DNA from: Planctomycetota bacterium
Lineage (GTDB): Bacteria; Planctomycetota; UBA1135; UBA2386
Direction: 5' to 3'
DNA length: 64,000 nt
NCBI GenBank assembly: GCA_019636245.1
Contig: JAHBXX010000014.1
Coordinates: 1 to 64,000 of the forward strand
Under the pieces are notes generated by a model that worked only from the letters and a program-made list of their open reading frames with translations, ran no database searches and was not told the DNA's origin. The position numbers and the translations under genes are program-made. Within the stretch, counting starts at the first letter, position 1, and each line of letters starts with the position of its first letter. Of the stretch, positions 7,805-16,529 are shown piece after piece.

Positions 7805-8016
7805 GCAGCGGCGCTGCGGTGCTGTCGCCTGCCGCGGCAGGCCGTCATCCGCAGGCAGGTCGGGCCGCCGGCGCGGCCCCCTTCGGCTGCCCGATCCGGC
7901 CACGGAGGCTGCACGACGGGGGGCCGGCCCGGCCGTGTCGCGGCGGCTCGGTGCTGCTCGGCCTCTCCACTGGCCGCCAAGGGTGGGGCGGATCCTGGTG
8001 CGGGCGGTGTCGGGCC
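7805..8016. other. Intergenic stretch left of the transposase remnant
   Basis: No credible gene is seen. The same reading frame as the transposase-like fragment at 8017 stays open through here, but the encoded sequence is Arg/Ala/Pro-rich and unrecognisable. It may be eroded transposase sequence. Confidence 0.4.
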
Positions 8017-8172
8017 GGGGCTGCGGGTGAACCTGCACTTCCAGGTGCTGTGGCTGGACGGGGTGCATGCGAGCGAGCCGGGCACTGGCCGCGGGGTCTT
8101 CTGCGCGCACGCGGAGGTGACAGATCGCCGAGTGGCGCAGCTGGTGGCGGCGATCCGGGTGCGGGTGGTGCG
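8017..8172 (+). mobile_element. IS91-type (Y2/HUH) transposase fragment, N-terminal side
   Basis: The encoded segment reads GPGLRVNLHFQVLWLDGV, followed about 20 residues later by EVTDRRVAQLVAAIRVRVVR. This matches the HUH-nuclease region of IS91-family Y2 transposases, where LNVHFHxLxLDGV is followed by a helix ending in ARV-R-L. The second His of the HFH catalytic motif is Gln here (HFQ), so even this fragment looks dead. It runs in frame into the truncated galactose-oxidase C-terminus at about 8173 without a stop, so the two were fused by a rearrangement. A matching C-terminal transposase piece lies beyond the array at about 16308. Confidence 0.6.
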
Positions 8173-8521
8173 GTATAACCTCGTGCTGGTCAACCAGTTC
8201 ACCCTGGCGCCGATCAGCCAGACGGCCCTGTCCGGAGTCCTTTACGGCCAGACCGTCATCGCCGGGCTCAACACGCGCTTGCCCACCGGGGTCACCATCG
8301 AGGAGGCCGTCCTGCTGGCCCCGGCCGCGTTGACCCACCACGATGACGGTGGCCAGCGCTGCATTCCGCTGCTGGTGCAGGACGACATCTCGTTTCCGCA
8401 CGGGTCCGCGCGGGTCACGATGCCCGCCTCCGCGCAGCACGCTCCGCCCGGCTGGTACATGCTGTTCGTCCTGACCAATGCCGGCATCCCTTCCAACGCC
8501 GTCTGGATCAACCTGAGGTGA
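8173..8521 (+). pseudogene. 5'-truncated galactose-oxidase-like gene (C-terminal E-set domain only)
   Basis: About 115 codons that encode the C-terminal early-set (DUF1929-type) domain of galactose/glyoxal-oxidase-like proteins. They contain GVLYGQT, ALTHHDDGGQRCIPL (the usual VTHSFDxxQRYVPL strand pair) and the terminal APPGWYMLFVLTNAGIPS. The kelch propeller and active site are missing, and no start codon or signal is visible. The left end joins transposase-like sequence. The stop (TGA 8519-8521) lies 2 bp before the FG-GAP start, which preserves the original tandem gene order. From 8416 onward this sequence is the beginning of the repeat unit. Confidence 0.7.
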
Positions 8522-8523
8522 CC

Positions 8524-10191
8524 ATGCGAGTCCTCCGACTGTGCGTCCTCGTGCTGCTCGCCGGGGTGTGCCTGCCGGGGCAGGAACTGCTCTGGCGGTT
8601 GGAGGGCCAGGGTGGGGTGCTCGGTCGTGGCCGCGAGCTGTACCGGCTGGGCGACGTCAACGGCGACGGCTGGGAGGACATGATCGAGTGGGGTCAGGTG
8701 GCGGATGCGGCGAGTCCGGCGGGCCGCCGCAACGCGCTGTTCGTGACCTCGAGCCAGAACGGTGCCGTGTTGTCGCAGGCACCGGCGATGGCGACCTGGG
8801 GGCTCAGCTTCCGGATCTGGTCGCTCACGGGGGTCGGCGACATGAACCAGGACACGATCCCCGACTACGCGGTGACCGTCTACGACGCCGCTGCCATCAG
8901 CAATCCACCGCAGTGGATCGAGGTCCGAAGCGGTGCCAGCCACGCTGTGCTCTGGACGCAGACGATTCCGTTCGCGTGGAGCCACTCCTACGGCTACTCG
9001 ATCGGCGGCGACATGGACGTCAACGGCGACGGCCTGCGCGACATCGTCGTCGGCGCGCCGCAGTTGTCGCCCGGTGGCACGATCATCGTCTACGGCAACG
9101 ACGGCGCCGAGCTCTACCGCATCGTCGACCCGCTGCCCAACGTGCGCATCGGCGTCGACCTGCAGCCGCTGCACGGCGATCTCGACGGCGATGGCTGCGA
9201 CGACTTCCTGTGCGCCGGCCCGGACTGGCTGGGCCGCGGGGCGGTGATCGTGTTCTCGGGCCAGACCGGCGCGGTGCTGCGCGAGTCGTATGGCGACCAG
9301 GGGGGCGACGCGCTGTCGTTCGCGACGCCGTGCGGCGACATGGACGGCGATGGCGTGCCCGACTACGCGGGTGGCGGCTTCTGGGGCGCGTCGGCGGTGA
9401 CGGCCTTCTCGGGCGCGACTGGGCTGCGCATCCACACCTGGCGCCTTCCGACCCCCTACATGGGCGGCAACCTGATGGGTGGCTTCGACGTCGACCAGGA
9501 TGGCGTCAACGACATCGTCGCCGGCCAGGACCAGGAATCCCTCAACGTGCTGTCGGGCCGCGACGGCACGTTCCTGCGGCGCTACTTCGATTCGGTCCCG
9601 GGCGTTTCGACGGCCGGGATCGGTATGGCACAGGTGCTGCTGGCACCGCCGCCGGGTGAGCAGTACCCGCTGTTCGTCTACAGCGAGCGCGAGTGGCTCA
9701 ACAACACGACCAACCCGCCGATCAACAACCTGATCCCGGGCCTGTTGTGGTGCTACCGCGGCAGCCCCGACGGCGTGCGCGGCTACGGTGCCGCGGATGC
9801 GAGCGCTGGCCGGCCGCTGCCGCGCAGCGGCGTGCGCGATGTCGACGGGCCGGGCGTGCGCTTCACGCTGTCGAACGCGCCGCCTTCGATGCCGGCGCTG
9901 CTGCTGCTCGGCACGTCGTCGACGACCTACGGGGCCGTGCCGCTGCCAGCGCCGCTCGATGCGCTCGGCATGCCGGGCATGACCCTGCTGACCGCCGCGG
10001 ACGTGGTCGGCTTTGCCTGGACTGGCGCCACCGGCATGGCGCACGGCTACGCGGCGCTCGAGCCCAACGTGCCACCCGGCATGAGCCTGCACGCGAACGG
10101 CACGGCGTTGTTCGCGCAGTGGCTGTGGTTCGACCCGTTCGACCTGAGCCAGGGCGGGTCGACGATGGGCCAGCGGTTTCGCGTGCAGTAG
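8524..10191 (+). CDS. Secreted FG-GAP/integrin-like beta-propeller protein, copy 1
   Basis: 555 residues from the ATG at 8524. It has a typical Sec signal (Arg-containing start, then CVLVLLAGVCLPGQ). The mature protein carries FG-GAP/VCBS blades with Ca2+-binding loops: DVNGDGWEDM, DMNQDTIPDY, DVNGDGLRDIV, DLDGDGCDDF, DMDGDGVPDY and DVDQDGVNDI. These loops are hallmarks of integrin-alpha-like propellers, which serve as extracellular binding or scaffold domains. The C-terminal ~110 residues form a separate beta domain seen in many secreted proteins of this type. It is coupled to the preceding galactose-oxidase-like sequence (2-bp gap). This copy lacks an upstream promoter within the array. Confidence 0.9.
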   Translation: MRVLRLCVLVLLAGVCLPGQELLWRLEGQGGVLGRGRELYRLGDVNGDGWEDMIEWGQVADAASPAGRRNALFVTSSQNGAVLSQAPAMATWGLSFRIWSLTGVGDMNQDTIPDYAVTVYDAAAISNPPQWIEVRSGASHAVLWTQTIPFAWSHSYGYSIGGDMDVNGDGLRDIVVGAPQLSPGGTIIVYGNDGAELYRIVDPLPNVRIGVDLQPLHGDLDGDGCDDFLCAGPDWLGRGAVIVFSGQTGAVLRESYGDQGGDALSFATPCGDMDGDGVPDYAGGGFWGASAVTAFSGATGLRIHTWRLPTPYMGGNLMGGFDVDQDGVNDIVAGQDQESLNVLSGRDGTFLRRYFDSVPGVSTAGIGMAQVLLAPPPGEQYPLFVYSEREWLNNTTNPPINNLIPGLLWCYRGSPDGVRGYGAADASAGRPLPRSGVRDVDGPGVRFTLSNAPPSMPALLLLGTSSTTYGAVPLPAPLDALGMPGMTLLTAADVVGFAWTGATGMAHGYAALEPNVPPGMSLHANGTALFAQWLWFDPFDLSQGGSTMGQRFRVQ

Positions 10192-10203
10192 CAGCGAGGC
10201 GCG

Positions 10204-10252
10204 GCGCGATTCGCCGCCAGGCGACCGCTGGCCGCCGACCGTCGAATCGCGC
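10204..10252 (+). terminator. Hairpin after FG-GAP copy 1
   Basis: A perfect 10-bp inverted repeat, GCGCGATTCG (10204-10213) and CGAATCGCGC (10243-10252). An inner CCAG/CTGG pairing lies in the loop. It starts 12 bp after the FG-GAP stop. No T-tract follows, so it may be an intrinsic-like terminator or an mRNA 3'-end stabiliser. Confidence 0.6.
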
Positions 10253-10682
10253 GGCTGCCGCCACTTCGGCGCCGGCTGCGAGCCCGCGCAGCAACTCGGC
10301 CTGGCGGCCTCGGCCTTCGCTTCGGCCTTGCCCGCGGCGGCGCCGCAGCACGCCTTCTCGGCGGCGCCAGCCCCGACGAGCAGACCCTGCAGTGGATGCC
10401 GATGGCGCCGCGTCGGCCCTGGAACTGGGTGGGTCCGCTGGTCGACCGCGTGATCCCCGAGGTGCCGCGCTGGTGCCGTGGCCGAGGAAGCGCGTGGTGA
10501 CCTACCATGGGATCTGGCTGCCGCCACGGTGGGGCAGCTGCTGGTGCGGCGACGGGCGCGGACGAGGATCGTCGGTGCGTGGGTCCCGGGTGGTTCGGGA
10601 CGCAGCTAGGACTTCCTATTCGCCCCCGCCGACGATGCGCTGCAACGTTGGTGCGCCGGGGGGCGCGAGGTCGCGGCGGGAA
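10253..10682 (+). other. Spacer with decayed transposase-like sequence, unit 1
   Basis: No intact gene is seen. In mixed frames the strand reads pieces such as WVGPLVDRVIPEVP and ALVPWPRKRVVTYHG (about 10420-10515). These resemble the VPPPRxHLxRYHG segment near the C-terminus of IS91-type transposases, broken by frameshifts. The identification is weak here and rests mainly on the better-preserved continuation beyond copy 3. Confidence 0.35.
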
Positions 10683-10711
10683 TTGACACGATGCGCGACG
10701 CCGCCGAGAAT
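10683..10711 (+). promoter_or_regulatory. Sigma-70-like promoter of galactose-oxidase-like/FG-GAP cassette
   Basis: A perfect -35 TTGACA (10683-10688), a 17-bp spacer and GAGAAT (10706-10711) as -10 (4 of 6 matches). A strong ribosome site AAAGGAGG (about 10724-10731) follows, then the ATG at 10736. The hexamer, spacing and distance to the start are all consistent with a housekeeping promoter. Confidence 0.65.
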
Positions 10712-10735
10712 CACCGGCGAAGGAAAGGAGGTCCG

Positions 10736-11443
10736 ATGCAGCCGAGCTACGCGTCTGTTCTGTTCTGTGGTGAGGTGAGTGCCCAGGGCGTGTGGGGGGC
10801 GCCGTTCGATCACCTTGCCAGTGGTCCCGAAGTCGACCCCGCATCCCACTCCGTGATTCCGACGACGTCGCCACCGCCGAACGCAGCGAACTGGATCACG
10901 CAGAACGTGCCCGGCCAGCCCGGGCCGCATAACGGGTTCAGCGCCGTGCATGCGTGCGTGATCCCATCCGGTCCGCATCGTGGCGAGGTGCTGGTGTGGG
11001 ATGGCAACCTGACCCTGGTCGGCACCCGTGCCTACCAGCCCTGTGCGATCGTCAATCCGTACTGGCCGTCGCCCAACCCGTTCGTGCCGGGTGGCGGCAG
11101 CGGCTACCGGTTCCACAACTGGCTGCTGCCGGTGCCGCTCGATTCCTCTGGCCAGCCGATGGGTGAGCTGTTCTGCGCCGGGCAGCGCTGGTTGTCGGAT
11201 GGCCGCCTGTTCGTGGCGGGCGGCACCAAGCGGTACCCGATCCAACTGGGGGGTGCGGATCGCTGGGAGGGCGCGAAGTTCGTCTGGCAGTGGGATCCGA
11301 CGCCGACGGCCGGCAGCCCGTTCGGGACTTGGTGGCGCACGATGCCCGCCTCCGCGCAGCACGCTCCGCCCGGCTGGTACATGCTGTTCGTCCTGACCAA
11401 TGCCGGCATCCCTTCCAACGCCGTCTGGATCAACCTGAGGTGA
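10736..11443 (+). CDS. Galactose-oxidase-like protein with large internal deletion, copy 1
   Basis: 235 residues from the ATG at 10736, chosen for the AAAGGAGG site 4-5 bp upstream. Residues 1-200 are the N-terminal, kelch-propeller part of a galactose/glyoxal-oxidase-like protein (GAPFDHLASGP, HRGEVLVWDGN, WLSDGRLFVAGGTKRYP). Residues 202-235 (MPASAQHAPPGW onward) are the last strands of the E-set domain. The several hundred residues normally between them, including the Cys/Tyr/His copper site, are absent. The join at 11337/11338 is exactly the repeat-unit boundary and keeps the frame. It is followed after 2 bp by an FG-GAP copy. It is probably not an oxidase, and a stable fold is uncertain. 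Confidence 0.75.
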   Translation: MQPSYASVLFCGEVSAQGVWGAPFDHLASGPEVDPASHSVIPTTSPPPNAANWITQNVPGQPGPHNGFSAVHACVIPSGPHRGEVLVWDGNLTLVGTRAYQPCAIVNPYWPSPNPFVPGGGSGYRFHNWLLPVPLDSSGQPMGELFCAGQRWLSDGRLFVAGGTKRYPIQLGGADRWEGAKFVWQWDPTPTAGSPFGTWWRTMPASAQHAPPGWYMLFVLTNAGIPSNAVWINLR

Positions 11444-11445
11444 CC

Positions 11446-13113
11446 ATGCGAGTCCTCCGACTGTGCGTCCTCGTGCTGCTCGCCGGGGTGTGCCTGCCGG
11501 GGCAGGAACTGCTCTGGCGGTTGGAGGGCCAGGGTGGGGTGCTCGGTCGTGGCCGCGAGCTGTACCGGCTGGGCGACGTCAACGGCGACGGCTGGGAGGA
11601 CATGATCGAGTGGGGTCAGGTGGCGGATGCGGCGAGTCCGGCGGGCCGCCGCAACGCGCTGTTCGTGACCTCGAGCCAGAACGGTGCCGTGTTGTCGCAG
11701 GCACCGGCGATGGCGACCTGGGGGCTCAGCTTCCGGATCTGGTCGCTCACGGGGGTCGGCGACATGAACCAGGACACGATCCCCGACTACGCGGTGACCG
11801 TCTACGACGCCGCTGCCATCAGCAATCCACCGCAGTGGATCGAGGTCCGAAGCGGTGCCAGCCACGCTGTGCTCTGGACGCAGACGATTCCGTTCGCGTG
11901 GAGCCACTCCTACGGCTACTCGATCGGCGGCGACATGGACGTCAACGGCGACGGCCTGCGCGACATCGTCGTCGGCGCGCCGCAGTTGTCGCCCGGTGGC
12001 ACGATCATCGTCTACGGCAACGACGGCGCCGAGCTCTACCGCATCGTCGACCCGCTGCCCAACGTGCGCATCGGCGTCGACCTGCAGCCGCTGCACGGCG
12101 ATCTCGACGGCGATGGCTGCGACGACTTCCTGTGCGCCGGCCCGGACTGGCTGGGCCGCGGGGCGGTGATCGTGTTCTCGGGCCAGACCGGCGCGGTGCT
12201 GCGCGAGTCGTATGGCGACCAGGGGGGCGACGCGCTGTCGTTCGCGACGCCGTGCGGCGACATGGACGGCGATGGCGTGCCCGACTACGCGGGTGGCGGC
12301 TTCTGGGGCGCGTCGGCGGTGACGGCCTTCTCGGGCGCGACTGGGCTGCGCATCCACACCTGGCGCCTTCCGACCCCCTACATGGGCGGCAACCTGATGG
12401 GTGGCTTCGACGTCGACCAGGATGGCGTCAACGACATCGTCGCCGGCCAGGACCAGGAATCCCTCAACGTGCTGTCGGGCCGCGACGGCACGTTCCTGCG
12501 GCGCTACTTCGATTCGGTCCCGGGCGTTTCGACGGCCGGGATCGGTATGGCACAGGTGCTGCTGGCACCGCCGCCGGGTGAGCAGTACCCGCTGTTCGTC
12601 TACAGCGAGCGCGAGTGGCTCAACAACACGACCAACCCGCCGATCAACAACCTGATCCCGGGCCTGTTGTGGTGCTACCGCGGCAGCCCCGACGGCGTGC
12701 GCGGCTACGGTGCCGCGGATGCGAGCGCTGGCCGGCCGCTGCCGCGCAGCGGCGTGCGCGATGTCGACGGGCCGGGCGTGCGCTTCACGCTGTCGAACGC
12801 GCCGCCTTCGATGCCGGCGCTGCTGCTGCTCGGCACGTCGTCGACGACCTACGGGGCCGTGCCGCTGCCAGCGCCGCTCGATGCGCTCGGCATGCCGGGC
12901 ATGACCCTGCTGACCGCCGCGGACGTGGTCGGCTTTGCCTGGACTGGCGCCACCGGCATGGCGCACGGCTACGCGGCGCTCGAGCCCAACGTGCCACCCG
13001 GCATGAGCCTGCACGCGAACGGCACGGCGTTGTTCGCGCAGTGGCTGTGGTTCGACCCGTTCGACCTGAGCCAGGGCGGGTCGACGATGGGCCAGCGGTT
13101 TCGCGTGCAGTAG
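11446..13113 (+). CDS. Secreted FG-GAP beta-propeller protein, copy 2
   Basis: 555 residues, identical in translation to the copy at 8524. Unlike that copy it sits 2 bp downstream of a complete promoter-RBS-hybrid gene (10683-11443), so it has an obvious route to transcription. It has the same Sec signal and six DxDxDG-type calcium loops. Confidence 0.9.
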   Translation: MRVLRLCVLVLLAGVCLPGQELLWRLEGQGGVLGRGRELYRLGDVNGDGWEDMIEWGQVADAASPAGRRNALFVTSSQNGAVLSQAPAMATWGLSFRIWSLTGVGDMNQDTIPDYAVTVYDAAAISNPPQWIEVRSGASHAVLWTQTIPFAWSHSYGYSIGGDMDVNGDGLRDIVVGAPQLSPGGTIIVYGNDGAELYRIVDPLPNVRIGVDLQPLHGDLDGDGCDDFLCAGPDWLGRGAVIVFSGQTGAVLRESYGDQGGDALSFATPCGDMDGDGVPDYAGGGFWGASAVTAFSGATGLRIHTWRLPTPYMGGNLMGGFDVDQDGVNDIVAGQDQESLNVLSGRDGTFLRRYFDSVPGVSTAGIGMAQVLLAPPPGEQYPLFVYSEREWLNNTTNPPINNLIPGLLWCYRGSPDGVRGYGAADASAGRPLPRSGVRDVDGPGVRFTLSNAPPSMPALLLLGTSSTTYGAVPLPAPLDALGMPGMTLLTAADVVGFAWTGATGMAHGYAALEPNVPPGMSLHANGTALFAQWLWFDPFDLSQGGSTMGQRFRVQ

Positions 13114-13125
13114 CAGCGAGGCGCG

Positions 13126-13174
13126 GCGCGATTCGCCGCCAGGCGACCGCTGGCCGCCGACCGTCGAATCGCGC
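13126..13174 (+). terminator. Hairpin after FG-GAP copy 2
   Basis: An exact copy, one period on, of the 10-bp-stem hairpin at 10204-10252, again 12 bp downstream of the FG-GAP stop. Confidence 0.6.
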
Positions 13175-13604
13175 GGCTGCCGCCACTTCGGCGCCGGCTG
13201 CGAGCCCGCGCAGCAACTCGGCCTGGCGGCCTCGGCCTTCGCTTCGGCCTTGCCCGCGGCGGCGCCGCAGCACGCCTTCTCGGCGGCGCCAGCCCCGACG
13301 AGCAGACCCTGCAGTGGATGCCGATGGCGCCGCGTCGGCCCTGGAACTGGGTGGGTCCGCTGGTCGACCGCGTGATCCCCGAGGTGCCGCGCTGGTGCCG
13401 TGGCCGAGGAAGCGCGTGGTGACCTACCATGGGATCTGGCTGCCGCCACGGTGGGGCAGCTGCTGGTGCGGCGACGGGCGCGGACGAGGATCGTCGGTGC
13501 GTGGGTCCCGGGTGGTTCGGGACGCAGCTAGGACTTCCTATTCGCCCCCGCCGACGATGCGCTGCAACGTTGGTGCGCCGGGGGGCGCGAGGTCGCGGCG
13601 GGAA
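13175..13604 (+). other. Spacer with decayed transposase-like sequence, unit 2
   Basis: An exact copy of the spacer at 10253-10682. No intact gene; the same weak resemblance to the C-terminal part of an IS91-type transposase. Confidence 0.35.
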
Positions 13605-13633
13605 TTGACACGATGCGCGACGCCGCCGAGAAT
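13605..13633 (+). promoter_or_regulatory. Sigma-70-like promoter, second copy
   Basis: TTGACA at 13605-13610, 17-bp spacer, GAGAAT at 13628-13633. An exact copy of the element at 10683; it would drive the hybrid gene at 13658 and FG-GAP copy 3. Confidence 0.65.
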
Positions 13634-13657
13634 CACCGGCGAAGGAAAGGAGGTCCG

Positions 13658-14365
13658 ATGCAGCCGAGCTACGCGTCTGTTCTGTTCTGTGGTGAGGTGA
13701 GTGCCCAGGGCGTGTGGGGGGCGCCGTTCGATCACCTTGCCAGTGGTCCCGAAGTCGACCCCGCATCCCACTCCGTGATTCCGACGACGTCGCCACCGCC
13801 GAACGCAGCGAACTGGATCACGCAGAACGTGCCCGGCCAGCCCGGGCCGCATAACGGGTTCAGCGCCGTGCATGCGTGCGTGATCCCATCCGGTCCGCAT
13901 CGTGGCGAGGTGCTGGTGTGGGATGGCAACCTGACCCTGGTCGGCACCCGTGCCTACCAGCCCTGTGCGATCGTCAATCCGTACTGGCCGTCGCCCAACC
14001 CGTTCGTGCCGGGTGGCGGCAGCGGCTACCGGTTCCACAACTGGCTGCTGCCGGTGCCGCTCGATTCCTCTGGCCAGCCGATGGGTGAGCTGTTCTGCGC
14101 CGGGCAGCGCTGGTTGTCGGATGGCCGCCTGTTCGTGGCGGGCGGCACCAAGCGGTACCCGATCCAACTGGGGGGTGCGGATCGCTGGGAGGGCGCGAAG
14201 TTCGTCTGGCAGTGGGATCCGACGCCGACGGCCGGCAGCCCGTTCGGGACTTGGTGGCGCACGATGCCCGCCTCCGCGCAGCACGCTCCGCCCGGCTGGT
14301 ACATGCTGTTCGTCCTGACCAATGCCGGCATCCCTTCCAACGCCGTCTGGATCAACCTGAGGTGA
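13658..14365 (+). CDS. Galactose-oxidase-like protein with large internal deletion, copy 2
   Basis: 235 residues, identical to the hybrid at 10736. It has the same N-terminal kelch part, the same in-frame join to the E-set tail (junction at 14259/14260) and the same RBS. That a second, identical, open copy exists shows the deletion arose before or together with the amplification. Confidence 0.75.
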   Translation: MQPSYASVLFCGEVSAQGVWGAPFDHLASGPEVDPASHSVIPTTSPPPNAANWITQNVPGQPGPHNGFSAVHACVIPSGPHRGEVLVWDGNLTLVGTRAYQPCAIVNPYWPSPNPFVPGGGSGYRFHNWLLPVPLDSSGQPMGELFCAGQRWLSDGRLFVAGGTKRYPIQLGGADRWEGAKFVWQWDPTPTAGSPFGTWWRTMPASAQHAPPGWYMLFVLTNAGIPSNAVWINLR

Positions 14366-14367
14366 CC

Positions 14368-16035
14368 ATGCGAGTCCTCCGACTGTGCGTCCTCGTGCTG
14401 CTCGCCGGGGTGTGCCTGCCGGGGCAGGAACTGCTCTGGCGGTTGGAGGGCCAGGGTGGGGTGCTCGGTCGTGGCCGCGAGCTGTACCGGCTGGGCGACG
14501 TCAACGGCGACGGCTGGGAGGACATGATCGAGTGGGGTCAGGTGGCGGATGCGGCGAGTCCGGCGGGCCGCCGCAACGCGCTGTTCGTGACCTCGAGCCA
14601 GAACGGTGCCGTGTTGTCGCAGGCACCGGCGATGGCGACCTGGGGGCTCAGCTTCCGGATCTGGTCGCTCACGGGGGTCGGCGACATGAACCAGGACACG
14701 ATCCCCGACTACGCGGTGACCGTCTACGACGCCGCTGCCATCAGCAATCCACCGCAGTGGATCGAGGTCCGAAGCGGTGCCAGCCACGCTGTGCTCTGGA
14801 CGCAGACGATTCCGTTCGCGTGGAGCCACTCCTACGGCTACTCGATCGGCGGCGACATGGACGTCAACGGCGACGGCCTGCGCGACATCGTCGTCGGCGC
14901 GCCGCAGTTGTCGCCCGGTGGCACGATCATCGTCTACGGCAACGACGGCGCCGAGCTCTACCGCATCGTCGACCCGCTGCCCAACGTGCGCATCGGCGTC
15001 GACCTGCAGCCGCTGCACGGCGATCTCGACGGCGATGGCTGCGACGACTTCCTGTGCGCCGGCCCGGACTGGCTGGGCCGCGGGGCGGTGATCGTGTTCT
15101 CGGGCCAGACCGGCGCGGTGCTGCGCGAGTCGTATGGCGACCAGGGGGGCGACGCGCTGTCGTTCGCGACGCCGTGCGGCGACATGGACGGCGATGGCGT
15201 GCCCGACTACGCGGGTGGCGGCTTCTGGGGCGCGTCGGCGGTGACGGCCTTCTCGGGCGCGACTGGGCTGCGCATCCACACCTGGCGCCTTCCGACCCCC
15301 TACATGGGCGGCAACCTGATGGGTGGCTTCGACGTCGACCAGGATGGCGTCAACGACATCGTCGCCGGCCAGGACCAGGAATCCCTCAACGTGCTGTCGG
15401 GCCGCGACGGCACGTTCCTGCGGCGCTACTTCGATTCGGTCCCGGGCGTTTCGACGGCCGGGATCGGTATGGCACAGGTGCTGCTGGCACCGCCGCCGGG
15501 TGAGCAGTACCCGCTGTTCGTCTACAGCGAGCGCGAGTGGCTCAACAACACGACCAACCCGCCGATCAACAACCTGATCCCGGGCCTGTTGTGGTGCTAC
15601 CGCGGCAGCCCCGACGGCGTGCGCGGCTACGGTGCCGCGGATGCGAGCGCTGGCCGGCCGCTGCCGCGCAGCGGCGTGCGCGATGTCGACGGGCCGGGCG
15701 TGCGCTTCACGCTGTCGAACGCGCCGCCTTCGATGCCGGCGCTGCTGCTGCTCGGCACGTCGTCGACGACCTACGGGGCCGTGCCGCTGCCAGCGCCGCT
15801 CGATGCGCTCGGCATGCCGGGCATGACCCTGCTGACCGCCGCGGACGTGGTCGGCTTTGCCTGGACTGGCGCCACCGGCATGGCGCACGGCTACGCGGCG
15901 CTCGAGCCCAACGTGCCACCCGGCATGAGCCTGCACGCGAACGGCACGGCGTTGTTCGCGCAGTGGCTGTGGTTCGACCCGTTCGACCTGAGCCAGGGCG
16001 GGTCGACGATGGGCCAGCGGTTTCGCGTGCAGTAG
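14368..16035 (+). CDS. Secreted FG-GAP beta-propeller protein, copy 3
   Basis: 555 residues, identical to the other two copies, in the truncated last unit. It is preceded 2 bp upstream by the hybrid oxidase-like gene of unit 2 and so lies in the operon driven by the promoter at 13605. The terminator hairpin follows at 16048. Confidence 0.9.
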   Translation: MRVLRLCVLVLLAGVCLPGQELLWRLEGQGGVLGRGRELYRLGDVNGDGWEDMIEWGQVADAASPAGRRNALFVTSSQNGAVLSQAPAMATWGLSFRIWSLTGVGDMNQDTIPDYAVTVYDAAAISNPPQWIEVRSGASHAVLWTQTIPFAWSHSYGYSIGGDMDVNGDGLRDIVVGAPQLSPGGTIIVYGNDGAELYRIVDPLPNVRIGVDLQPLHGDLDGDGCDDFLCAGPDWLGRGAVIVFSGQTGAVLRESYGDQGGDALSFATPCGDMDGDGVPDYAGGGFWGASAVTAFSGATGLRIHTWRLPTPYMGGNLMGGFDVDQDGVNDIVAGQDQESLNVLSGRDGTFLRRYFDSVPGVSTAGIGMAQVLLAPPPGEQYPLFVYSEREWLNNTTNPPINNLIPGLLWCYRGSPDGVRGYGAADASAGRPLPRSGVRDVDGPGVRFTLSNAPPSMPALLLLGTSSTTYGAVPLPAPLDALGMPGMTLLTAADVVGFAWTGATGMAHGYAALEPNVPPGMSLHANGTALFAQWLWFDPFDLSQGGSTMGQRFRVQ

Positions 16036-16047
16036 CAGCGAGGCGCG

Positions 16048-16096
16048 GCGCGATTCGCCGCCAGGCGACCGCTGGCCGCCGACCGTCGAATCGCGC
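16048..16096 (+). terminator. Hairpin after FG-GAP copy 3
   Basis: Third copy of the GCGCGATTCG...CGAATCGCGC hairpin, 12 bp after the FG-GAP stop. Confidence 0.6.
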
Positions 16097-16307
16097 GGCT
16101 GCCGCCACTTCGGCGCCGGCTGCGAGCCCGCGCAGCAACTCGGCCTGGCGGCCTCGGCCTTCGCTTCGGCCTTGCCCGCGGCGGCGCCGCAGCACGCCTT
16201 CTCGGCGGCGCCAGCCCCGACGAGCAGACCCTGCAGTGGATGCCGATGGCGCCGCGTCGGCCCTGGAACTGGGTGGGTCCGCTGGTCGACCGCGTGATCC
16301 CCGAGGT

Positions 16308-16529
16308 GCCGCGCTGGTGCCGTGGCCGAGGAAGCGCGTGGTGACCTGCCATGGCGTGCTGGCGCCGGCGGCGGGTCTGCGGTCGCGGGTGGTGCCGCGT
16401 GTGTTGCCAGAGGAGGCTGAGCACGGCGGCTGCCGGCACGGTGAGACGAACGTGGCTGCGGTCGGCAAAACGCTGGATCCGAGTGCCCAGCACGGTAGCG
16501 GCGAGCTCGATGGCCTCATGCCGCGATGA
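16308..16529 (+). mobile_element. IS91-type transposase fragment, C-terminal side
   Basis: Reading + in one frame to the stop at 16527-16529: ALVPWPRKRVVTCHGVLAP, then AAGLRSRVVPRVLPEEAEHG. IS91-family Y2 transposases carry VPPPRxHLxRYHGVLAPxAxxRxxVVP near the C-terminus, and this agrees well. The upstream catalytic half is absent on this side, and the downstream Cys-rich segment of intact members is not seen. It crosses the end of the repeat (16347), so copy 3 joined this sequence within the YHG motif shared with the decayed spacer copies. From 16530 to 16648 nothing recognisable was found. Confidence 0.55.

Follow-up and report, generated by a model that had tools for sequence, protein, structure and literature searches.

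A galactose-oxidase-like hybrid gene as a possible translational leader of an amplified FG-GAP gene in a planctomycete

Our analysis suggests that a 235-residue, catalytically empty galactose-oxidase-like (GalOx-like) hybrid may be an internal-deletion derivative that was kept because it serves an FG-GAP gene, itself amplified, as translational leader. This is the best explanation that we can offer, and we give it slightly less than an even chance. The wider interest is the repeat-bearing operon family from which the hybrid came. The following features were identified in the window, by which we mean the whole 64-kb stretch of DNA analysed.

8068-8176, + strand: N-side piece of a Y2-transposase relic, fused to the E-set that follows, 87% to the transposase ORF on contig C22
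8228-8521, + strand: the longer E-set, that of the leftmost GalOx copy; includes the THH motif and extends to the stop (PF09118 positions 8-99, alignment)
8416-16347, + strand: perfect tandem array, period 2922, 2.7 copies (self-comparison)
8518-10191, + strand: FG-GAP gene copy 1 (copies 2 and 3 at 11440-13113 and 14362-16035)
10466-10506, + strand: piece of transposase relic, 41 bp, within the unit, also at 13388-13428 (C22 comparison; probable duplication joint at 10503/10504)
10683-10711, + strand: promoter-like site TTGACA-17-GAGAAT upstream of the hybrid (0 expected in shuffles)
10736-11443, + strand: hybrid GalOx-like ORF copy 1, 235 aa (ATG at 10736, stop TGA at 11441-11443)
10754-10768, + strand: (TCTGT)3 in the hybrid start region (copy 2 at 13676-13690; relatives carry long repeats there)
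11337-11338, no strand: deletion joint between the kelch part and the E-set tail, copy 1 (equivalent to 14259/14260 in copy 2)
13658-14365, + strand: hybrid ORF copy 2, identical to copy 1 (ORF list and array self-comparison)
16310-16445, + strand: C-side piece of the Y2-transposase relic, 77% to C22, running uninterrupted past the array's right end at 16347

The first-pass annotation had described 200 residues of the N-terminal kelch part joined in frame to the end of the E-set domain at 11337/11338, and this was confirmed, the joint lying inside codon 201 and leaving 200 kelch-side residues, one chimeric codon and 34 E-set residues. Hybrid residues 202-233 match the Pfam domain GO-like_E_set (PF09118) at positions 69-99, with 37 bits against a cut-off of 25. 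The hybrid gene itself stands, not as the single copy described but as two identical ones. Its frame, promoter-like site, ribosome site and overlap with FG-GAP are retained, as had been noted: AAGGAGG precedes the ATG, and FG-GAP can start at a GTG overlapping the hybrid stop or at an ATG 2 bases beyond it. Third-position GC is high (0.83), and the signal peptide is weak by eye. The start codon is in phase, and the 15-nt (TCTGT)3, with nothing longer present, leaves the hybrid without a tract long enough for frequent slippage.

In galactose oxidase, the DLFC-G, YHS and THH motifs contain the cofactor cysteine and ligands, with RWYP, YHS and THH supplying the tyrosine partner and copper ligands. 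Both the hybrid, at its two ends, and the leftmost E-set of the window align with full-length galactose-oxidase-like proteins of relatives. One such relative matches galactose oxidases/AA5 copper-radical oxidases of known structure (9g43, 4unm, 1gof) across both propeller and E-set, and its DLFC-G, YHS and THH motifs are aligned with theirs. In the hybrid, the remainder of the propeller is missing, as is the greater part of the E-set (in 235 aa, PF09118 positions 69-99 only). Of the motifs it retains that of the cysteine alone, as ELFCAG at residues 144-149; RWYP, YHS and THH fall in its alignment gaps. Because the cysteine motif is kept but the other ligand motifs are missing, the hybrid, judged from these alignments, cannot be a copper-radical oxidase, in agreement with the earlier claim that the active site is absent.

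The array was resolved by self-comparison at lag 2922, in which 8416-13425 is identical over 5010 bases without a mismatch; since the identity covers exactly this interval, the unit boundary falls at 11337/11338 and the array ends at 16347. The first-pass annotation had taken 11337/11338 for the repeat junction. This now appears less likely than a duplication joint at 10503/10504, inside the transposase relic, because the array's right end is the only place where the relic continues unbroken. The sequence there is thus more likely native and 10503/10504 derived, and 11337/11338 is probably an internal deletion. The C22 transposase ORF matches Y2_Tnp (PF04986), and its N-side and C-side match the relics of the window, which are IS91-like. 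In contrast to Y2/IS91-like elements, the window holds fragments only, and no mobility was seen. The same ORF (G000:C22:6173-6937) has its front fused to a piece that looks radical-SAM-like by eye, a further relic fusion. A BLAST alignment had extended into the left flank at 8000-8180 as if it were propeller; its DNA is 87% to the transposase ORF, the assignment was rejected, and what is left of the leftmost GalOx copy is its E-set, to which a piece of transposase is fused. The left flank, a glycosyltransferase by eye, is common to the window and G002 up to position 7838. For the right flank, none of 12 relatives had a match at E<=1e-30, and synteny with relatives revealed no empty site for the array.

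Homologues and parents of the hybrid were then considered. Fifteen of 154 genomes of the order match it at E<=1e-6. The same 235-residue architecture, which the first-pass annotation had reasoned would mark an old family rather than a deletion product, was found in none of the 154, and an old 235-aa family was rejected; a single further short frame contains both ends, that of G032:C316, with 298 aa and different breakpoints. A first scan of contigs with the hybrid as query returned no match. Within the hybrid's own genome, no complete GalOx gene was found. The intact parent gene, suggested earlier as something to seek elsewhere in this genome, was looked for and not found; partial copies only were recovered. 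That on C7 runs off the contig end before the E-set, that on C1 keeps most of the propeller but no more than the final residues of the E-set, and in that on C33, close to the end of a contig, the leader is fused in frame to the tail. The E-set-side parent of the hybrid is present in the window (8228-8518); the kelch-side parent was not found in the 89 contigs, and with this parent absent from the assembly, a microhomology-mediated join at CAC was set aside.

FG-GAP relatives (E<=1e-20) occupy 20 places, distributed over 10 of the 41 genomes compared. The related genomes identified by name are Planctomycetota metagenome-assembled genomes, with one labelled Acidobacteriota; G001 belongs to the same genus as the window. 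Full-length GalOx genes lie upstream at eight places (G014:C152, G011:C47, G017:C151, G001:C126, C78 and C102, G049:C77, G011:C313), and truncated GalOx genes with an E-set tail at nine: three in the window, C1, and five in relatives (G011:C301, G011:C368, G003:C33, G002:C48, G006:C214). The remaining places are G049:C277, at a contig edge, and G024:C88, without a detected GalOx; the FG-GAP fragment G017:C140 is counted among the 20 and was left out of the upstream-gene classification. A tail-keeping or internally deleted GalOx also precedes a lower-scoring FG-GAP in G032:C316. In most operons examined, the GalOx stop and the FG-GAP start overlap as ATGA or GTGA.

Two further observations concern FG-GAP itself. 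The three G001 contigs C102, C78 and C126 (L052-L054) all end inside it, at about residue 536 of 557, as would be expected if the three shared a 3' segment that is nearly identical. The C-terminal ~110 residues of FG-GAP match parts of other ORFs in the hybrid's own genome at 32-37% (G000:C35:39621-39920, C38:35253-35675 and C38:11685-11963), perhaps reflecting a shared sorting domain.

Both ends of the deleted gene are present in six cases, and the frame across the deletion is kept in four, namely in the window, C1, C33 and G032:C316, and lost in G003:C33 and G002:C48; the chance of at least four in six is ~0.10, which is not significant and does not demonstrate selection for frame. G011:C301, G011:C368, G006:C214 and G049:C277, where no 5' piece was found, were left out of this count. 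Neither C1 nor G032:C316 has its upstream ATG in phase with the gene, and in the latter (L063) the internally deleted 298-aa GalOx carries a short (AG) tract after that ATG. On this comparison the hybrid is not a one-off, because its own genome and those of relatives contain comparable tail-keeping deletion derivatives. The search for tail-keeping GalOx genes was anchored on FG-GAP, and the tails contain FG-GAP start signals, which could alone explain tail survival.

The start of the gene proved informative in relatives. Across 22 loci (135.8 kb, window left out), 12 of the 13 tandem repeats of at least 18 nt lie at a GalOx gene start, with units GGAA, CT, TC, TCTCC, CCTCT, CTGTC, TTGCTCG and ACTC, against one such repeat in a comparison set of 17 other, partly overlapping loci (75.0 kb). 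The 64-kb window has two such repeats of GC-rich triplets, each lying apart from the array. A start repeat is present in 10 of 11 full-length FG-GAP-coupled GalOx genes (L048, L049, L050, L052, L053, L054, L059, L062, L065 and L140; absent from L145 in G025) versus none of 10 uncoupled ones (L132, L142, L143, L144, L147-L152; one-sided exact p ~3e-5, a value to be taken as a rough guide because the loci are related). G114 (L146), L141 and the hybrid genome's own C7 (contig ends too soon to judge coupling) were left out, as were L130, L131, L133 and L134, which repeat other loci. The first-pass account of the start region was right about the promoter-like and ribosome sites and overlooked these repeat tracts of the operon family.

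In the hybrid's own genome, (GGAA)5 or longer is confined to the GalOx starts of C1 and C7. In 33 relatives, (GGAA) runs occur also elsewhere, in two secreted-looking G014 ORFs and at one place each in G011 and G017. The two G014 ORFs (L079 and L092; C120 and C138) are related, are not GalOx, and carry (GGAA)6-8 just after the ATG; a repeat switch may be wider than GalOx. Nine copies of CTCAGCT follow, at a distance of ~285 bases, a GalOx gene that has no FG-GAP (L152:4746-4808, reverse-complemented; G011:C535).

Phase was assessed from the nearest ATG at most 75 nt upstream in 14 repeat loci. Thirteen have such an ATG, five in phase with GalOx and eight out, and L048 has only a GTG. In one orthologous pair, the only one available, G001:C126 and G002:C38 (the latter running off its contig) belong to two species and have near-identical flanks and tracts that differ by exactly 8 nt, or two units, placing them OFF and ON, respectively. 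Seen across relatives, these observations are evidence for phase variation. Contingency genes switched by simple sequence repeats are known from Haemophilus, Neisseria and Helicobacter. The operon family likewise has repeats of 2-7 bases soon after the ATG, mixed ON/OFF states and a repeat-number difference between orthologues; it differs from them as a Planctomycetota GalOx-FG-GAP operon known from sequence alone, and its hybrid member has three units. A more speculative reading, which we consider unlikely on balance, is that GalOx-FG-GAP operons form a phase-variable surface system in uncultured Planctomycetota, driven by their start repeats, and that the array escaped, with the oxidase hollowed out, the repeat shrunk in the ON state, and FG-GAP locked on at a higher dose.

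Several other explanations have to be weighed against a leader role. The hybrid could be a dead by-product, a pseudogene remnant whose leader is idle while FG-GAP initiates from its own ribosome site in the tail. GalOx truncation before FG-GAP is common, and the two out-of-frame cases among the six both-end deletions imply that the frame is not essential; however, the hybrid still has its ATG, its ribosome and promoter-like sites, an open frame and a high third-position GC. The identity of the copies is uninformative here, because they are recent copies of each other. We regard this as the strongest competitor, although as less likely than not. The joint and the copy number raise a different doubt, namely that the assembler, or strain mixing in a metagenome-assembled genome, made the copy number or even the joint itself. 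The zero-mismatch repeat and the split of the genome into 89 contigs would fit such an error, but both copies carry an identical joint, the outer flanks of the array are distinct, and similar deletion joints occur at other loci. We regard such an error as improbable.

The product might instead be a new, small protein of the cell surface that has a binding function of its own and has ceased to be an oxidase. Its open frame and, by eye, secretion-like start agree with this idea, as do the partly confident strands at residues 67-190 when it is modelled with 16 relatives aligned. That model nevertheless has a mean pLDDT of 54.9 with a poor tail, the single-sequence model reaches only 33.4, and a homologue of the same architecture is absent among the 154 genomes. 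We consider a new surface protein very improbable.

Under the preferred explanation, of a deletion derivative kept as a leader, a GalOx-FG-GAP surface operon would originally have stood between two direct transposase relics. Exchange between the relics may have duplicated the operon, an order of events that we infer from one array. The middle of the oxidase would then have been deleted in one copy and its front lost in the leftmost one, and further unequal exchange would have copied the hybrid-bearing unit. FG-GAP would be what is kept and amplified, the hollow oxidase surviving mainly as a translated leader. Its ATG, its short tract of in-frame repeats and the FG-GAP start signals in its 3' tail would together drive coupled translation.

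In open-licence literature we found no report of repeat-based phase variation in Planctomycetota or of a phase-variable galactose oxidase, and none of FG-GAP with galactose oxidase in planctomycetes. The available portions of PMC4060949 and PMC3711429 report no such repeat-switched operon, and 'phase-variable' has a microscopy sense in those of PMC5845749. Our findings, if true, would extend repeat-based phase variation to the Planctomycetota and to a copper-radical oxidase family, and would show a gene losing its enzyme yet persisting as a translational leader.
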